A stretch of 64,000 nt of DNA, from contig OX485807.1 of NCBI GenBank assembly GCA_950295325.1, positions 19,623,666 through 19,687,665 on the forward strand, given 5' to 3'. The stretch comes from Polytrichum commune (lineage: Eukaryota > Streptophyta > Polytrichopsida > Polytrichales > Polytrichaceae). Below the pieces are notes generated by a model that searched no databases, had not been told where the DNA came from, and worked only from the letters and a program-made list of their open reading frames with translations. The position numbers were made by a program, and so were the translations under genes. Within the stretch, counting starts at the first letter, position 1. Each line of letters starts with the position of its first letter. Positions 21,632 to 59,905 of this stretch are shown here, piece after piece.

Positions 21632-22593
21632 CTATGATCCGGGAGAACCGGATTTGGGCGAACCAACCAATACACTCGTTCCTTGTTGGACGCCTAAACC
21701 CTTGCCTCCATGCAACGAATGTACGGGTTGGTTCGCCCCAGCCAAAGAACCGGCAGTTAGTTACAGATGAACCAGTTTAGTTTGAGAAATAACCGGTTGA
21801 AGTTCACCAAGATTAGAGGGAAATTACCGATCTTTTTAGGGGAATTTATAGAATATACCCCAATTTCGTAAAGTAAAACCAACGGATGTCAACATGTAAC
21901 CCGGTTGGACTTGCCTCCATGGAACTGGTATACGGGTTGGTTCACCCCAGCAGGAGAACCGGCAGTTAGTTATAGATGAACTGGTTTAGTTTGAGAAATA
22001 ACCGGTTGAAGTTCACCAAGATTGTAGGGAAATTACTGATCTTTTTAGGGGAATCTATAGAATATACACCGATTTCGTAAAGGAAAACCAAAGGATGTCA
22101 ACATGTAACCCGGTTGGACTTGCCTCCATGGAACCAATGTACGGGTTGGTTCGCCCCAGCCGGAGAACCGGCAGTTAGTTACAGATGAACCGGTTTAGTT
22201 TGAGAAATAACCAGTTGAAGTTCACCAAGACTGTAGGGAAATTACCGATCTATTTAGGGGAATTTATAGAATATACCCCAATTTCGTAAAGGAAAACCAA
22301 AGGATGTCAACATGTAACCCGGTTGGACTTGCCTCCATGGAACCAGTGTACTGGTTGGTTCGCCCTAGCCGGAGAACCGGCAGTTACTTACATATGAACC
22401 GGTTTAGTTTGAGAAATAACTGATTGAAGATCACCAAGACTGCATGAAAATTACCGATCTTTTTAGGGGAATCTATAGAGAATACACCCCAATTTCGTAA
22501 AGGAAAACTGAAGGATGTCAACATGTAACCCGGTTGGACTTGCAAACACTCGGATCTCAACCAATTATGCCCAAGAAATCTCCCCCGTCACTG
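21632..22593 (+). mobile_element. Non-autonomous hAT element with amplified interior
   Basis: Left end CTATGATCCGGGAGAACCGG; right end TCTCCCCCGTCACTG, whose complement begins CAGTGACGGGGGAGA. Both match ends of the smaller copies at 24969 and 28689. Flanks CTCTTCGT (21624-21631) and CTCTCCAT (22594-22601) agree at six of eight positions and differ by transitions, as expected for an old 8-bp hAT target duplication. The interior is expanded by the tandem array listed separately. No transposase is present. Confidence 0.7.
21692..22529 (+). repeat. Four tandem units of about 209 bp inside the hAT element
   Basis: Successive units are marked by CCGGTTGGACTTGC at 21901, 22110, 22319 and 22530, giving periods of 209, 209 and 211. 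Each unit holds most of the short hAT element body (GAACCGGCAGTTAGTTACA, AATAACCGGTTGAAGTTCA, GGATGTCAACATGTAACC) plus a 38-bp linker with GGGTTGGTTCGCCCCAGCC. Confidence 0.9.
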
Positions 22594-34095: not shown

Positions 34096-34632
34096 GACGA
34101 CACCATTTATAGTATTTGGTGTCACACACACTATTTGCAAAGGGCCTGAACTAGATGCCTAGAGGTCTCAAAGTGATGCATATGGTAATTGCCAATATAA
34201 TACTATTTGTCAACGTACATAACTTTTTCGAGTGAAAATTTATTTGCATTATGATATTTAACGTAGCACATTAGATTAATTGGGATGATAGCTTTGCATT
34301 TTAAAGTGCAAGGGAGAGATATTATTGAGCATTCTAATGAAAAAGTGTCATGTGTATACAATTTAATGTGCCAGAAGGACAATATTCTTGAGCTTTTTAA
34401 TGTCAAGTGTCATTTGTGTATAATTTACTCACCTTATAGACCGGGGATACACCTCATAACATTATTGAACATACTTGTGCCAAGATATTAGTAAGCATAT
34501 TGAAAAGCCAAGTGTCATGAGGTGACACTAATAATGAAGTTGTGTGATCGTTAATGTCACCTAGCATATGCCTCAAAATAGGGTAAGTGACACTATTACG
34601 CATGCGACACTAAATATCATAATTGGTGTAGT
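34096..34632. mobile_element. CACTA-like non-autonomous element
   Basis: Left end CGACACCATTTATAGTATTT and right end AATATCATAATTGGTGTAG are inverted versions of CTACACCATTTATGGTATTT with TTTAGTGTCAC inside, also seen at 39229 and 41869. Interior blocks (GATGCCTAGAGGTCTCAAAG, ACACCTCATAACATTATTGA, GCCTCAAAATAGGGTAAGTG) recur in the nested copy at 39.2-41.9 kb. Target duplication not clear. Confidence 0.6.
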
Positions 34633-39228: not shown

Positions 39229-39807
39229 AAGTACACCGTTCATGGTATTTAGTGTCACGTACGTTAGTTGCGTAGGGGCCGAACTGGATGCCTAGAGGTC
39301 TCAAAGTGTCACGTCTGCTAATTGCCAATATAACACTATTCATCCACACAAGTGACATTTATTTATTTTATTTTATTATAACATCCTAGCATTTTAGCAT
39401 AGCGCATTGGGATACCTTTTTTCTTCTTCTTTTTGAGAGAGAAGGCCAACAAAGCCACCGCCAAATGCATTAATACCAAGAAAACACGCCCTCGCCGAGG
39501 GGAGGTGGAACCCCTCAGGCGCAAAACACCGCCGCCACGTAAAGAGTAACAACAACCGACCCCCACCATGTACAACCCACAGGTCCCACCAAGCCAGGGA
39601 CCACCCCCCATGCCACCAGTGTTCAAGATTGAAGTCTTCAATGCCCTTCAAACGCGATTTGGCCCTTCAAAATATACCTCTCTCAAAACAACCCTTCAAA
39701 ATGCAACCCCAAACTCAAAATGAAAACTTCACTTGACGTCCTCAAAAATTTTACACCCGTCAACACTGTAGCGCTACAGTGACGAGGAGGTCGCTACAGT
39801 AATGAGG

Positions 39808-40422
39808 AGGTCGCTACAGTGACAACCTCAACACCTAGCAAATGATTCATTCAACATCGATTTGACTTGGAATTCAACTTTTTAGGTCTTGCAAACGATT
39901 GGAATCCAACCCTTTCTTTGGTAAGCATTGAGTCAGTGTTGTAGTGTGATGTGATTCAATCAATGTGAAATCAGTGCTGATTTGGGTCTACAAATTTAAA
40001 GGTTTGTGATGTAATTCACAGACTAATCACGAATGAATGTTTTTTGTGGGGTGAAGGCCAACACACTGGTAGTGGTGGAGCATGATGGTGGGGTTCTGAA
40101 AGGATCATCAATTAGTGCAATTGCAGCTGCGAGTGCATTAGGGGAAGGAAGCACAGTCGTGGAGGTCGCTACAGTGACAACCTCAACACCTAGCAAATGA
40201 TTCATTCAACATCGATTTGACTTGGAATTCAACTTTTTAGGTCTTGCAAAAGATTGGAATCCAACCCTTTCTTTGGTAAGCATTGAGTCAGTGTTGTAGT
40301 GTGATGTGATTCAATCAATGTGAAATCAGTGCTGATTTGGGTCTACAAATTTAAAGGTTTGTGATGTAATTCACAGGCTAATCACGAATGAATGTTTTTT
40401 GTGGGGCGAAGGCCAGCACACT
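39808..40422 (+). repeat. Direct duplication of 260 bp inside the hAT element
   Basis: Copies 39808-40067 and 40163-40422 are nearly identical, for example AACACCTAGCAAATGATTCA, AGCATTGAGTCAGTGTTGT and CGAATGAATGTTTTTTGTG. The 95 bases between them are almost exactly the captured exon fragment. Confidence 0.9.
40057..40160 (+). pseudogene. ETFA: Captured exon fragment of electron transfer flavoprotein alpha subunit
   Basis: ETF-alpha is the FAD-binding mitochondrial subunit that passes electrons from acyl-CoA dehydrogenases to ETF-QO. Reading from 40057 the sequence encodes ANTLVVVEHDGG, VLKGSSISAIAAASALGEG and STV. This matches the N-terminus of mature plant ETF-alpha (pattern TL.(L/V)AEH..G..K, then AA..LGE.S). 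The reading frame is open from an ATG at 40033 to a stop at 40198. Only about 35 codons of homology exist; the FAD domain is absent. It lies between the two 260-bp copies inside a hAT element, so it is a transduplicated fragment, not a gene. Confidence 0.75.
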
Positions 40423-40503
40423 AGTTTCGTAGACACTATCTGGGTGAAAGTTTTGGCCTGACAACCAAACACCTAGGAAAGTTTTTCCGCGAGGTGGTAC
40501 CCA

Positions 40504-41193
40504 ATGGGCAGATATTGTATGTTGATAGTTTTGGGTGTGAAAAAAATGCATATCTTGCATTATGATTCCATGCCCGAGTGTGACGTAGGAGGCTCATTGG
40601 AGGCATGCATCATGTTGGGGAGGCAGTATGTGCAGAAGATCATCGATTCACTCAATGATCGATTTCCTGACTTGTCCATTTTCAATGCGGCCCGGCTTTT
40701 TAGCCCGAAGCACTATCCCGTAGATGAATTGGACAGAGGGACATTAACGGAACAATGGTTGAACCGGTTGGTGACACATTTCCGTTGCAGCGATGACCTT
40801 GTTAATCAATGCAATGCGGAATTGCTAGAATTCGTGGAGATGTTATGTTCCGTTTGTGAACGCCGAAGTATGCAAGAAGCTTGGGTTTTTTGTGGCAATG
40901 ACCGGGAGTTCATGATTAATTGGCCAACTATGATGTCGCTATGGCAAGCCATACTTGTGATCCCAACTAGCACTGATGTTTGTGAGCGTGGTTTTTCAAA
41001 GCAAAATTGGGTTAAGAGTGAAAGGAGAACTAGACTCAACCTTGACACACTAGATGCTTTAATGAGGGTTAGTCTAAATGGGTTAGGAGTTGAATTCATG
41101 GATTGGGATAGTATTTTTGAATCTTGGAAAATTGGCACAAGAACCAACAAGCGTAGGGCATTATCACTAGAAGAGGTGGAGTTAGATGGTTGA
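40504..41193 (+). pseudogene. hAT transposase, C-terminal fragment with dimerisation domain
   Basis: The last about 190 residues match plant hAT transposases: DLSIFNAARLFSPKHYP, then LWQAILVIPTSTDVCERGFS, KSERRTRLNLDTLDALMR, the hAT C-terminal dimerisation region. Residues before about 38 are not recognisable. The upstream BED zinc finger and first catalytic residues are missing, replaced by the duplication and captured exon. It may still be translated as a truncated product, with stop TGA at 41191. Confidence 0.85.
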
Positions 41194-41608
41194 TTCTTAA
41201 TTCTTCACATTGTATTGGAAGCATGCACCATATAAATCATGCATAAGTTTAATATGAGTTTTTTATATTTTATTTCTATATTACTGAATTGACGTCTTGA
41301 ATTTGAACTAGCCCTTCAACCGAAGGGCTCAAATTTTAGAGCCCTTCAAAATGAAACTCATATGAGGGCTTCAATCTTGAACACTGCATGCCACCTACCC
41401 ACATTGGGATACTTGAGATGATGCTTTTGCATTATAGTATCCAAGGGGAGGATATTAGTAAGCACACTAATGGCAAGTGTCATGTGTTTACATCTTAATA
41501 TGCAAGAGAAAGATATTCTTGAACATGCTAATGTCAAGCATCATTTGTGCACACTTTTTAGTCAATGTGTATATACTAGGCACACCACCTCATAACACTA
41601 TTGAACAT

Positions 41609-41735
41609 GCTCGCGCCCAGATATTAATAAACGCAAATCGCAAATCGCACTTGCACATGCTCATGCTAAGATATTAATAAACACAAGCGGCACTTGAACA
41701 TGATCGTGTCGAGATATTAATAAACGCAAGCGTAC
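41609..41735 (+). repeat. Three-unit minisatellite
   Basis: Three units share GATATTAATAAACGCAA or AACACAA followed by GC and CTTG(A/C)ACATG, spaced about 45-60 bases. Confidence 0.8.
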
Positions 41736-41869
41736 TTGAACATTGAATGAGGTGACAAAAATGGCAAAGTTGTTGGTAGTTCTTTTGACCTTTGCATGCG
41801 CCTCAAAATAGGGTAAGTGAATCTAGGACACGCGTGAAAGTAAATAGCATATATGGAAACGGTGTAGTG

Positions 41870-45842: not shown

Positions 45843-45970
45843 ATAAGACTACATCATTTATGGTATTTAGTGTCACATACTTAACAATGCCATATATCCT
45901 AATTGGAGACGTATGCTAGGTTACACTAATGATCAGCAACTTCACCATTAGCGTCACCTCATGACACTTG
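45843..45970. mobile_element. CACTA-like element fragment
   Basis: GACTACATCATTTATGGTAT then TTTAGTGTCACATAC matches the left terminus of the elements at 34.1 and 39.2 kb. Only the end is preserved. Confidence 0.5.
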
Positions 45971-46167
45971 ACGTTCACTTGCTTTAATTGATATTTTGAC
46001 ATAAGTGTATTTCATAGTGTATAAGGGACAAGTTATGTTTGTCAGAGAATATCTTATTCTACCTCGGGTAGAATTGGGCATTCTTACCGACCCGTTTTCC
46101 CTTGGTTTCTTGATTACCTTATTGGAGTACCAAGTTTGTCGCATTACCGGGAATTACTATCACTAAT

Positions 46168-49303: not shown

Positions 49304-49378
49304 CAGTTAGACGGAAGAGAGGGAATCCGGAAGAGAGGGAGAGAGTTTGCAAGCTGGAAAGTTAGAAGGGAGAGGAAA

Positions 49379-50965
49379 ATGCCGGAAGCACGGGAAGAGG
49401 ATCAGCGGGAACCTATCCCGATTCCGCTGAAAGCCCTCACCCCTGCAATTCCGAGGGAGGATAGAGAGCTGCAAGAGCTCGCGGAGGATCTCCGGGTCAT
49501 GGGTTGTGCGGGATTGCTCTCTAAACCCTGGAACCTCAGAGCGGAAGATACCCTTCGTGAGTTTAAGTTCGAGAGAGGCAATCAGTGGTTAGGCACAAAG
49601 AGGAGGGATCCGGAAAATTGGACTCCGGATACCTGGAACAGGGTCTACGGGTTTCCCAGGGGGATTGCCGAAGGGTGGGCCGGCCGCCGCGACGGCCTGT
49701 TCGCCGGAAAGTTCAGAGGGGACGCGGATCCAAAGGACGGATTCCACCTTGGGAACTGCCGGAATATTAGGGAGCGGAGAGTGTTAGAGTTTCTCCTGCC
49801 CATTCTCAACCCGGACAAGCCGAAGCAGATTAGCCTCACCATGGCTAATACGCTGTTTGGGGCAATGTCCGGAGTCCGACCGGTGAACTGGGGCCTGATC
49901 ATCCAGGAGATAGTCGGACGGGCCCTCCCCCACATCGGCCGGAAACCCTCCTTCCTCTCCCCCTTCATTTTGCACCTCTACCAGCACTTCGACTGCATCT
50001 TGGCGGAGGAGGAGGACCTGCTAACGATAGCGGCGGACGAGGTCGCCTACAAGCTTCTTCCGAAAGCCGGAGACGTCGAGACGGAGACCTCCAGCGACCC
50101 CATTCTTCCAGAAGCACCTCCCTCGTCACCCGGAAGCCCGCCGCCAACCGTCTCGAGGCCACTCTCTCCCCCTCCTCCTCACCATCATCCGGAAGCCGGA
50201 CCCAGCCGGGAGACCACATGGCGAAATGTGGACCTATCAGCTTGGGACTTTCCGGAAAATCCTTTCAAGCGGATGCAGGAGGGGATGGAGGACCTGCAAA
50301 CCCAGTACTTCCGGCTGGAGCACATCGTCCGAGGGGCGAACCAGGCTCTGGACGACTGCGGGCCCGGAAATATTCTTCGGGAGTTGGCAAAGAGGGCGGA
50401 CCGGAAGGAGCTGGAGCAGGCCAAGACGGAGAACGCTCACCTCACCGCGCAGGTAGCGGCCATGACTCAGGAGCTGAGTCAGAAGAGCGAAGAGATCCGG
50501 AAGTACCACGCGGAGCAGGCAGTGTTCTTCAGCCGGATCCGGGAGTTGGTGGGGCACCCGGCGGAGATCGTCAACAAGGTGCACCTCTACGACCGGATGA
50601 TGGAGTCCGGAGAGCCCGCTTCCGCCAGGCAGATCCTTCCCATCCTCGTGAAGTACTCACGGACGATGAAGGACCTCCTGGCGGAAATCCAGAGGGTGGT
50701 TCCATCAAGCGGAACACCCCGGCGGGTACTCTATCCGGGCCCGCCTGGGTCACCAACCGGAACCCTCTATGAGGTAGTTGGTGAAGTGGCCCTGGTGCAG
50801 AATCCGCCGACATCTGCAGGCCCCAGGCAGCAGGGAGGTGGCTCGCAGCCGGCTAGTTCCGGGAGGGTTCCGGAACAGGTCCGTTCTCCCCAGGTGAGGA
50901 GGAAGAGTACCGGGTCGGTCCGATCCGGGAGAGGCCAGTCCCCGGTTCCGCGAAACTCGGATTGA
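49379..50965 (+). CDS. Retroelement-borne protein of unknown function, 528 residues
   Basis: I do not recognise a named family. Residues about 25-235 look globular and conserved in style, with several Trp (WNLRAEDTLREF, WTPDTWNRVYGF, EGWAGRRDGLF) and RRVLEFLLPILNPDKPKQIS followed by VRPVNWGLIIQEIVGRALP. A Pro/Ser/His linker follows (SPPPPHHHPE near 270). Residues about 310-400 form a likely coiled coil (NILRELAKRADRKELEQAK). The Ser/Arg/Pro tail is basic (VRRKSTGSVRSGRGQSPVP). There is no zinc knuckle and no polymerase motif. The general layout recalls accessory or gag-like proteins of plant retroelements, which is inference. Start chosen at the first ATG of a long open frame with GC-rich third positions. 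A possible continuation in another frame lies at 51075-51416. Confidence 0.7.
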   Translation: MPEAREEDQREPIPIPLKALTPAIPREDRELQELAEDLRVMGCAGLLSKPWNLRAEDTLREFKFERGNQWLGTKRRDPENWTPDTWNRVYGFPRGIAEGWAGRRDGLFAGKFRGDADPKDGFHLGNCRNIRERRVLEFLLPILNPDKPKQISLTMANTLFGAMSGVRPVNWGLIIQEIVGRALPHIGRKPSFLSPFILHLYQHFDCILAEEEDLLTIAADEVAYKLLPKAGDVETETSSDPILPEAPPSSPGSPPPTVSRPLSPPPPHHHPEAGPSRETTWRNVDLSAWDFPENPFKRMQEGMEDLQTQYFRLEHIVRGANQALDDCGPGNILRELAKRADRKELEQAKTENAHLTAQVAAMTQELSQKSEEIRKYHAEQAVFFSRIRELVGHPAEIVNKVHLYDRMMESGEPASARQILPILVKYSRTMKDLLAEIQRVVPSSGTPRRVLYPGPPGSPTGTLYEVVGEVALVQNPPTSAGPRQQGGGSQPASSGRVPEQVRSPQVRRKSTGSVRSGRGQSPVPRNSD

Positions 50966-51074
50966 TCCCGGACTCCGGATAGGGCTAGGACGCCGATCCG
51001 GCACCAGACTTCTGATCGGGAGGCAACTCCGAGTAGGGACCCACGCCTCGCCATCGTCTCCGCAGGACTGTCAA

Positions 51075-51416
51075 ATGGTCAGTCCCTTTCCTCCGCCACC
51101 CTCAAGGGCGGCCTCCAACAGGGATCCGCGGACGGCTTCGATCTCGGGCGGACGGAATCCGGAGCAGGGCACCGGAAGCGATCCTTCTTCGATCCGGAGC
51201 CTCCGGATGGGGGCAGTTTCCGGAAACCCAGGGACCGGGACACTGCGGACCGAGAGAGCAGCGGATTCGGAGGACGAGGTTGCCCCGTCTCCGAACATGA
51301 GAAGGATGCTCACGCGGCTGCAGAAGGCATCGCCGGGAGGGGGCTCATCCGCCGTCAGCGGGTTAGGCAGTCACTCAAAGGAGGGATCGGCTCCGAAGAA
51401 GCACCGCTCTTCTTAG
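51075..51416 (+). CDS. Possible second exon or frame-shifted tail, Ser/Arg/Pro-rich
   Basis: This 113-residue stretch, led by an ATG but perhaps entered by splicing or frameshift, is basic and low-complexity, with MRRMLTRLQKASPGGGSS near the end and a stop TAG. It resembles the tail of the 528-residue ORF in composition. The overlapping frame is also open, so the true frame is uncertain. Confidence 0.35.
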   Translation: MVSPFPPPPSRAASNRDPRTASISGGRNPEQGTGSDPSSIRSLRMGAVSGNPGTGTLRTERAADSEDEVAPSPNMRRMLTRLQKASPGGGSSAVSGLGSHSKEGSAPKKHRSS

Positions 51417-51488
51417 TAGAGGATAATAGCTAGTTTAGTTAGGCAGAATAGAGGTAGGCAGGTAGGACTTAGGAGTTTTTGAAGATGA

Positions 51489-51704
51489 GTAATAAAATTT
51501 TCCCTTGGGAGTGTCAGCGGAAAACCCGGATCTTGATCCGGGAAATCCGGGAGACCGGGTGTAGTTAGGGTTTTCCTTAGCGGTGGCCGCTTGGGCCGCC
51601 GCCCTCAGTTTAGGGATTTTGAGCCTCTACTTAAGGCTGAATAAGGAGCTTGAGAAGGGTTCCTTCTCCATTGTTGTATTGTGATTACTCCTACTCCGAA
51701 TAAA
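51489..51704 (+). terminator. Candidate poly(A) signals
   Basis: AATAAA at 51489-51494 and again near 51699, downstream of both ORFs, with T-rich sequence nearby. Plant poly(A) signals are loose, so this is suggestive only. Confidence 0.4.
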
Positions 51705-51889
51705 TGCCTTTTGCTTCCCACTCCTTAACTTCTCTTGATTGATGTTTGTGTGAATGATCCGGAGACTGTTAGCGGAGGATAGAGAGAGAGAGCATGAGGG
51801 ATAGGAGTTCCGGATAGGACATGAGAGAAGAGACCCGGATCAGATCCGGTTATTGCCTTGTAGATCCTCTCTGAGTGTAGTGGGAGGGA

Positions 51890-52510
51890 AACCTCACTAA
51901 TCCGGTGGGTTGGGTAACGTCTAGGTGGGATAGCCGCTGGGAAGATTGGGTGAGATCCGGAAGGGATCCGGACTTACGCCAATCTGATCTTCTGAAGAGG
52001 TCCCACCGCCCTTAGACGGACCTATCCGGATGGTGGTACGGATCGCCCAGTTAGCGCAGATTGAGTAGAATCCAAGGTAGAGGTAGCCGGACAAATCCGT
52101 CAGAAGGAGAAGGGAAGGTCCAGATCAGTAAGGATTCCGGGTTGGAGGCCACCTCCGGAGTGAAGTAGGAAGAGATCCTCATTGTTCCGGATGTCCGGGT
52201 AACATCCCGGTGAGACAGTCGTGGGAGATTAGGCAAAGGTCCGGAAGGGATCCGGACTTTACTGACCTTCCAAAGGGGTAGCCTCACTGGTGGACGGGAC
52301 AATCCGGAAAGTGGTACGGGTCACCCACTCATCCCGTCGAGTCAGATCTCCGGTCGGAATCCGGACTCCTCTGGTCACCATGGTCCCAAGAAACAATCCG
52401 GATCTCTCTGTGTGACCTGCCAAGAGGGATCTGATCAATCCGGATTGGTTGTGAGGGAGTTTCCGGATTCCAATCTTATGAAGGACGTCCTCACAGGAAG
52501 AAACCACCTA
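51890..52510. repeat. Degenerate tandem repeat in the 3' part of the LTR-type element
   Basis: Two clear units, near 51890-52075 and 52150-52350, share GGTCCGGAAGGGATCCGGACTT or its near form, a CC(A/T)(A/C)TCTGATCTTC or GACCTTCCAAA block, and (A/C)CGGA(T/A)(G/A)GTGGTACGG. A weaker third unit follows to about 52510. Confidence 0.65.
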
Positions 52511-59160: not shown

Positions 59161-59668
59161 CCCTCATTCTTCCCTCACTCATCCTCTCTTTCCTTTGTGC
59201 TCCAAGGCACCCCACGAGTTATAAGTGTGGGTGTGGGAAGCCATATTGGAGCACATGTGTGTGCTTAGTTTTTAGTTTGAGAGCCAAGGCTTGTTAGCCT
59301 TGAAGAGGGCTTGACCTCTTGGTAGAATTAGTGTTGACGTGAAGGATTTTAAAGTTAATTCATGATTCCAATTTGTGGTACTTAAAGTTCATGTTTTGAA
59401 TACACGTGGTTGCAAGTTCCATGTTTAAGAGTTGAGCACTTGATGTTGTGATGAGTGCAAAAATATACTTGTGTGGATTAGTTGGTCTTAGTGAAGTTAG
59501 GAAATTCTCTCTCCCCCTCTCCTCTCTAGGATTTTAGGATTTTAGGATTAGAGAAGAATTGTGTGATTAGAAAGGGGTTGTTAGTAGAATTAGGGAAATT
59601 AGGTAGGAAGATTAGTTAAGGGCTTGAATAATTAGTGAGGTAGTTGGGGATTACAACTACAAAGTTGT

Positions 59669-59905
59669 GGGTTCATGAAGGAGCTGGGTTTATGAAGGAG
59701 CTGGGTTTGTTTAGTTAGAAAGTAAAGAGCTGGGTTTATGAAGGACCTGGGTTTGTTTAGTTAGAAGCTAAGGAGCTGGGTTTATGAAGGAGCTGGGTTT
59801 ATGAAGGAGCTGGGTTTGTTTAGTTAGAAGCTAAGAAGCTGGGTTTATGAAGGAGCTAGGTTTATGTAATTAGAAAGTAAAGAGATGGGTTCATGAAGGA
59901 GCTTA
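59669..59905 (+). repeat. Minisatellite inside the solo LTR
   Basis: Repeated GAGCTGGGTTTATGAAG with spacers TTTGTTTAGTTAGAAG(C/A)(T/A)AA. Nine or so copies of the core are arranged in a higher-order pattern. Confidence 0.85.

Follow-up and report, generated by a model that had tools for sequence, protein, structure and literature searches.

A hAT element with inherited ETFA gene cargo, nested in a retroposon within an older MITE-like repeat of Polytrichum commune

Uptake of host-gene DNA by hAT transposons has been described in plants and animals. In grapevine, Hatvine-6 elements have a similar transposase and similar terminal inverted repeats (TIRs) and a variable region that is often genic, with exons and introns, and is unique to one element or common to few (PMC2528002). 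Eleven gene-bearing Ds elements of maize (two Ds2 and nine Ds-l4) are non-autonomous, and repair of the excision break is cited as a suggested route of capture (PMC3260210). Pack-TYPE elements, including Pack-hAT, are a named class in rice and maize, for which fusion of two neighbouring insertions is a proposed mechanism and not a strict definition (PMC8903248). Multicopy Pack-TIRs also occur in animals, for example the frog Pack-hAT-N8_XT, where gap filling was discussed along with microhomology as a sign of template switching (PMC8277862). Here we describe a hAT element that carries DNA of the host's ETFA gene, found in a stretch of 64,000 nucleotides from Polytrichum commune (contig OX485807.1, positions 19,623,666 to 19,687,665; hereafter the window).

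We consider it highly probable (about 0.87) that the window hAT derives, as a non-autonomous copy, from a family that was amplified recently and whose long members hold pieces of host genes in the interval separating the 5′ end from the transposase region. The features of the hAT superfamily were all found: an 8-bp target-site duplication (TSD), short TIRs, a C-terminal dimerisation region and, in the long member L056, an N-terminal zinc finger (labels L017–L083 denote family copies or elements fetched from the genome, and L086 the host ETFA gene sequence). The TIRs of the window copy are 24 bp long, 92% complementary and start with CAGTG, a start typical of hATs. Between them lies host-gene DNA (ETFA), as in Pack-TYPE elements; the non-autonomy of that class applies to the window copy, which has a 238-codon C-terminal frame alone, and not to L056. 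A 265-bp direct repeat (39806–40070 and 40161–40425) has copies 355 bp apart with 5 differences. The window copy is non-autonomous and has undergone both tandem duplication and internal deletion; the deletion, which is its own, removes the remaining cargo and all of the transposase except the C-terminus. As it has both ends and only this part of the transposase, it could presumably have moved only with transposase supplied in trans.

The element lies in a retroposon that itself interrupts another repeat (Table 1), and this nest is confirmed. The earlier note on this DNA had reported duplications around both inner layers, and both are present: the 11-bp TSD CATTGGGATAC brackets the retroposon, at its sole two plus-strand occurrences in the window, and the 8-bp TSD CATGCCAC directly flanks the hAT TIRs. 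Nowhere else in the window do 8-bp direct repeats immediately border a perfect 14-bp inverted repeat (arms 100–12,000 bases apart). For 11-mers with at least 3 different letters and 150–5,000 bases apart, the window holds 1,294 equal pairs, among which 8 (several of them overlapping) have a T-rich/A-rich, retroposon-like edge; CATTGGGATAC is among the 8. The outer repeat, which resembles a miniature inverted-repeat transposable element (MITE), was there first; the retroposon entered it, and the hAT, carrying ETFA, followed. What had been described as a four-level nest is the outcome of three insertions, the last of which came with inherited cargo, and not of four events in succession at one site; the order of the insertions and the place of ETFA inside the hAT stand, while the capture by the window copy gives way to a segment that is cargo of the family.

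The 35 codons that had been read as resembling mature ETF-alpha match the host ETFA gene at the DNA level, a comparison that had been named as the check. The gene was located by three exon matches on contig C1 (71326696–71329337, minus strand), and positions 250–521 of the long-member sequence agree with it at 254/273 positions (93%). This match covers the exon that starts the mature protein and non-coding DNA upstream of it; the matched parts are probably exon 2 and intron 1, with the numbering and the intron read from the sequence and exon 1 not located. In the window copy, 96/101 exon bases and 32/34 residues equal those of the host gene. The ETFA origin proposed for 40033–40200 is upheld, and its extent is larger than thought, as the 35 codons are the exonic part alone, intron DNA adjoins them and a second partial copy ends at 40425. 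Because the 265-bp repeats are mostly ETFA intron, with the second copy reaching the first exon codons, the captured DNA was genomic. Another candidate assignment, that this repeat is the hAT's own 5′ region, was wrong, since the host ETFA gene matches it. The long member L057 diverges from the host gene by 7.0% in the intron part (16/228) and by 4.0% in the exon part (4/101). With the captured intron 7% from the gene and the median copy 0.21% from the family majority, the capture is older than the insertion; at a rate that we take to be 1.3e-8 per site per year, rough ages would be ~3 million years for the capture and ~0.2 million years for the burst, which we do not use as evidence.

The family is both numerous and young. 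A whole-genome search with the hAT gave 1,246 first-look candidates (not a copy number), 40 of which were scored, including the window copy; all counts from genome searches are lower bounds. We fetched the 39 other scored copies, and in 35 both ends were within the fetched stretch. Perfect 8-bp TSDs flank 34/35 of these, the last being off by one base, and all 35 left flank sequences are distinct. The left end of the remaining four lay further out and was found with a longer stretch for three, but not for L059. Across the final 480 bp of 54 copies, divergence from the column majority has a median of 0.21%, and the window copy differs at 1 of the 480 positions. A second search used 139 bases that contain the ETFA segment and gave 59 candidates; 40 were scored and 40/40 match at 96–100%, two of them ~350 bp apart at one locus on contig C5. 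Structures were read for 28 of these 40 places, and 27/28 are hATs with perfect 8-bp TSDs. The junction of the tandem duplication (L057 element position 522 to 160) is common to 13/28, including the window copy, so a single duplication, later amplified, is the most likely origin. The presence of the segment in other elements as part of a conserved hAT protein had been named as what would speak against a capture; it is present in many elements, but as gene DNA with an intron, not as transposase protein.

Two further observations concern the set of copies. The commonest derivative, the L017 class (1,328 bp), makes up 12/35 complete copies and is without any ETFA DNA; its break is at L057 position 179 (in one copy at 177), adjoining the minisatellite, with 9–11 bp of filler. 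Two 1,594-bp elements, L074 and L075, are assigned to different contigs (C27 and C1) yet do not differ in sequence or TSD, and are probably one locus that was assembled twice.

The long members show where the cargo sits. L057 has perfect TSDs and 6,053 bp between its TIRs, with ETFA, CBL-like and TYW2-like segments upstream of the transposase region. Its ETFA cargo begins with upstream non-coding DNA and part of the next exon and, after a gap of ~55 bp, resumes with the end of that exon and the intron behind it. In the CBL-like segment, a 37-residue exon matches CBL4 of PDB (E=2.6e-14), and C1:15071075-15071956, which matches this part at 92–95%, appears to be the CBL gene itself. The third segment matches C2:8576048-8576908 at 89–93%, where the TYW2 N-terminal domain is recognised in two frames (E 4e-7 and 1.3e-5); one of these frames is in a stretch without counterpart in the element, as expected for the C2 locus as donor. 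L056 (5,500 bp, perfect TSDs) has an open transposase frame of 748 codons, with matches above cut-off to PF25431 (zf-C17orf113, a zinc finger, E 1e-11) and PF05699 (Dimer_Tnp_hAT, E 4e-6), and carries other cargo in place of the ETFA, CBL and TYW2 pieces. As L056 keeps a 43-bp remnant of the ETFA intron, ETFA probably preceded the present cargo in its ancestor, and cargo was probably replaced in this lineage. The present cargo is 95% identical to two loci on contig C4 (C4:45279955-45282198 and C4:53261455-53263644), which may be a duplicated donor gene or older cargo copies; it presumably resembles a plant sulfhydryl oxidase, and its Pfam and PDB matches are weak. The N-terminal region of the transposase was found at ≥98% identity in six places, and the other 18/24 matches are relatives or fragments (67–84%, with one 73-base piece at 97%). 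L056, L057 and L058 each have one left and one right end match, as do 33/35 complete copies; L028 and L041 each have one further end match in the fetched stretch. Separately, C5:14841014-14846566 (search coordinates) has ETFA pieces twice, L056-type cargo, a TYW2-like piece and transposase together, and is possibly a recombinant or nested long element. We also observed that C1:15073165-15073394, ~1.2 kb beyond the CBL-like match, is 84% identical to a 228-bp stretch ending ~90 bp upstream of the hAT transposase ATG, so that the hAT leader may be partly host-gene DNA.

We considered several other explanations for the ETF-like stretch. A chance or low-complexity similarity would fit the protein searches in part: PF01012 matches the 34-codon stretch over profile positions 1–39 with E=0.0019 and 18.5 bits, below the curated whole-domain cut-off of 26.7, and no match was returned when the single peptide was searched against PDB and plasmids or the ETF-like stretch against NCBIfam. 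However, an ETF-alpha profile (8 bacterial and 2 PDB sequences) ranks the open reading frame (ORF) 40027–40197 first of 2,183 ORFs in the window (E=9e-4), and this ORF is not among the matches of an ETF-beta profile (7 sequences) over the same ORFs. In comparisons with 1000 shuffled peptides, none reached the score against 6/8 bacterial ETF-alpha sequences and the human one, and few did so against the other ETF-alpha sequences (13 for L002, 6 for L008 and 15 for Paracoccus), whereas 88–931 did so against the 7 ETF-beta sequences. ETF-alpha sequences, but not those of ETF-beta, beat the shuffled peptides, and with the 93% DNA match to the host gene, non-coding DNA included, chance is refuted and retains practically no probability. 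Capture of the exon by the window copy itself, in a four-step history at one site as the earlier note had it, agrees with the ETFA DNA inside the hAT and has the nest order right. It is at odds with the segment and its adjoining intron in all 40 scored places, with the hAT structure and perfect TSDs of nearly all those examined, and with a tandem-duplication junction that the window copy has in common with other elements. These refute it unless all copies descend from the window copy, which the internal deletion of the window copy makes unlikely, and we regard it as very improbable.

The stretch could instead be an exapted part of the hAT coding sequence, such as a 5′ exon of the transposase. 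L057 has it upstream of, and co-directional with, the transposase ORF; the exon frame is kept, and 33/34 residues equal the host protein. Against this, ETFA non-coding DNA is on both sides of the exon, the exon is missing from L056, whose 748-codon transposase ORF is open without it, and it is deleted from many mobile derivatives. In addition, of the five bases at which the 102-base exon segment of L057 departs from the gene, four are third codon positions, which is explicable by constraint on the gene itself. We consider exaptation unlikely, and no function is shown for the captured exon in the window copy.

Several observations weigh against a recently amplified family with host-gene cargo in its long members. 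L058, the one examined ETFA place outside the 27, has both TIRs but no matching TSD (5/8 flank bases differ). Over the left part, identity of the ETFA-bearing copies to L057 is 95–99.6%, with small insertions counted in the lower values. The constant 3′ part of L082 is shorter than 480 bp, which makes the maximum divergence (0.30) artefactual and inflates the mean (0.0082). The transposase frame is shifted near its start in L057 and L058, and in L083 a stop follows early when reading begins at the same ATG, so the ETFA-bearing long members found here may be unable to make transposase; among the long members read, L056 alone is open from the transposase ATG. The ETFA remnant of L056 could come from recombination with an ETFA-bearing copy. 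Lastly, the CBL-like locus and the two L056-cargo loci are putative donors and may be older element copies.

The junctions suggest how the family with its inherited cargo may have formed. Many of the shorter copies, each with a TSD of its own, are derivatives by internal deletion. We counted 55 junctions in 49 elements, entering shared junctions more than once: an overlap of ≥2 bases is seen at 30, one of a single base at 1, and filler at 24. As deletion classes with fixed junctions are found at different sites, a single origin of each deletion, with transposition afterwards, is most likely. With microhomology or filler at nearly all of them, the junctions show the pattern expected of aborted or template-switching gap repair, and repair of this kind has a role in forming Ds-like deletions. 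Host segments would have been captured as genomic DNA with their introns, through template switching while a gap or fork was repaired, and the internal deletions and the tandem duplication may have come from the same kind of aborted repair. Short copies would then have been moved in trans by the transposase of long members such as L056. The window copy, with its inherited ETFA cargo, inserted into the 208-bp retroposon, itself inserted in the old MITE-like repeat. More tentatively, and at somewhat less than even odds, the lineage may be active now or have been so very recently and may be a cargo-swapping shuttle, in which multi-gene segments are repeatedly taken up and replaced by long, transposase-bearing members in one slot beside the GAGGAGGT minisatellite, deleted offspring spread exons and introns, and the transposase leader may be partly a captured host gene. 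It is an open question how TIR transposons acquire and swap host DNA; in this family the junctions record the sequence of events, with the donor gene, long members, deletion derivatives and the trace of replaced cargo together in one genome as a clean, recent case. Dozens of ETFA-derived copies, 96–100% alike over the searched piece, could also affect host-gene expression or annotation.

The two older layers of the nest were characterised as follows. The retroposon is 208 bp long after removal of the hAT and one copy of the hAT TSD, with its A-rich tail on the minus strand. A longer, variable TSD (here 11 bp) and a 3′ A-rich tail are hallmarks of retroposons of the long or short interspersed nuclear element type. 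Its two minus-strand ORFs have no credible match in Pfam, and an Rfam scan of the window at gathering score found no family. When the two outer halves are joined across one copy of the 11-bp TSD, 410/509 aligned bases (81%) are identical to 34100–34632; since the halves align with this insertion-free stretch, the unfilled site exists as a paralogue. With the paralogue as query, 4,153 first-look candidates were obtained genome-wide; 40 were scored, and the full-length matches, the query itself aside, are 77–80% identical; the outer repeat is, by this identity and number, old and abundant.

The outer halves had been called CACTA-like, and they do rejoin outside the insertion. TIRs that start with CACTA at both ends were not found: the right end of the outer element is CACTACACCGTTT and the left end AAGTACACCGTT, the two ends of the paralogue are GACGACACC and AACTACACC, and of the outer-element ends the right one alone reads CACTACACC. 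In plants, the TSD of CACTA elements is 3 bp. Within 5 bp of the outer-element ends, a search for a TSD in both copies found scattered 3-mers and none longer. The TSD of the CACTA elements described in PMC8903248 is 5 bp. With a single CACTA end and no TSD beyond scattered 3-mers, the assignment is unproven.

Table 1 Features of the nested insertions and related copies in the window.
Feature	Position	Strand	Basis
Left half of outer ~0.64-kb repeat element (MITE-like)	39229..39404	+	blastn: 39233-39340 vs 34100-34207, 80.6%
TSD of retroposon, copy 1 (CATTGGGATAC)	39405..39415	+	One of two plus-strand occurrences in window
Retroposon body, A-rich tail at 39416 end	39416..39616	-	Sequence reading
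TSD of hAT, copy 1 (CATGCCAC)	39609..39616	+	Directly flanks TIR
hAT element, 1,770 bp, non-autonomous derivative	39617..41386	+	TIR and TSD; 39 other copies among 40 scored
5′ TIR	39617..39640	+	92% complementary to 3′ TIR
20-bp minisatellite (CGCTACAGTGACGAGGAGGT) adjoining cargo boundary	39772..39811	+	Repeat search
First copy of ETFA non-coding DNA taken as intron 1	39827..40056	+	Window hAT 211-541 vs host gene L086, 91.9%
ETFA exon segment, 34 codons (ANTLVVVEHDGG...GEGSTV)	40057..40158	+	Match to host gene, ETF profiles
Second, truncated copy: ETFA intron and first exon codons (GCCAGCACACTAGT)	40182..40425	+	91.0% to host gene
Constant 3′ module, 99% to 39 other scored family copies	40421..41386	+	Genome search
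Transposase ORF 3′ remnant (238 codons and stop), hAT dimerisation region	40477..41193	+	PF05699 E 2.7e-5, above curated cut-off
3′ TIR	41363..41386	+	92% complementary to 5′ TIR
TSD of hAT, copy 2 (8 bp)	41387..41394	+	Directly flanks TIR
Retroposon 5′ end (7 bp past hAT)	41395..41401	-	Sequence reading
TSD of retroposon, copy 2 (11 bp)	41402..41412	+	One of two plus-strand occurrences in window
Right half of outer element; end ...AACGGTGTAGTG = CACTACACCGTT on other strand	41413..41868	+	Self-comparison, alignment
Unfilled paralogue of outer element (empty site)	34100..34632	+	Alignment to joined halves
Partial third copy of outer element	45845..46026	-	nhmmer E 1.4e-7

Elsewhere in the window, a tandem array of four 209-bp units (91% matches) lies at 21701–22543, and a complex tandem repeat with nested periods of 46, 63 and 109 at 59668–59903. 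A 553-codon open frame at 49304–50962, in a GC-rich patch (59% GC at 50001–52000), has no credible Pfam match. The 248-aa frame at 1223–1966 has a partial Cyclin_C_2 match (E 5.3e-5, below cut-off) and is probably an exon of a host cyclin gene. Weak Pfam matches (GNAT, ZapB, Elicitin, DUF998, FemAB-like, Mig-6) were set aside.

Gene capture by a hAT had been put forward as less often described than capture by Mutator-like elements or Helitrons; that comparison stands, and hAT captures were reported in 2008, 2011, 2021 and 2022. In our literature search, no title or abstract start names an ETFA-bearing hAT. The family belongs with the known gene-capturing hATs (Hatvine-6, maize Ds and Pack-hAT). 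It resembles Hatvine-6 in a shared type of transposase and TIRs with variable genic cargo (PMC2528002), but here one ETFA cargo is in dozens of copies, three gene segments are joined in one element, and a remnant suggests cargo replacement. Maize Ds2 and Ds-l4 are likewise hATs with gene fragments that include introns, captured via genomic DNA, although the gene-bearing elements there are non-autonomous (PMC3260210). Like the Pack-hATs of rice and maize, these are TIR elements with host-gene segments, amplified in clusters (PMC8903248); unlike the Pack-hATs of that report, which are non-autonomous and ascribed to fusion of neighbouring insertions, transposase-bearing members carry cargo here, and a single left and a single right end match is seen in each of L056, L057 and L058. 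Pack-hAT-N8_XT is similar as a hAT that amplifies a host-gene piece, with microhomology at junctions, and differs in having spread into three chromosomes, whereas here nearly all examined ETFA places (27/28) are hATs with perfect TSDs (PMC8277862). What sets this family apart is that dozens of very young copies share one cargo, that a single element joins segments of three genes, and that a trace of cargo replacement persists.

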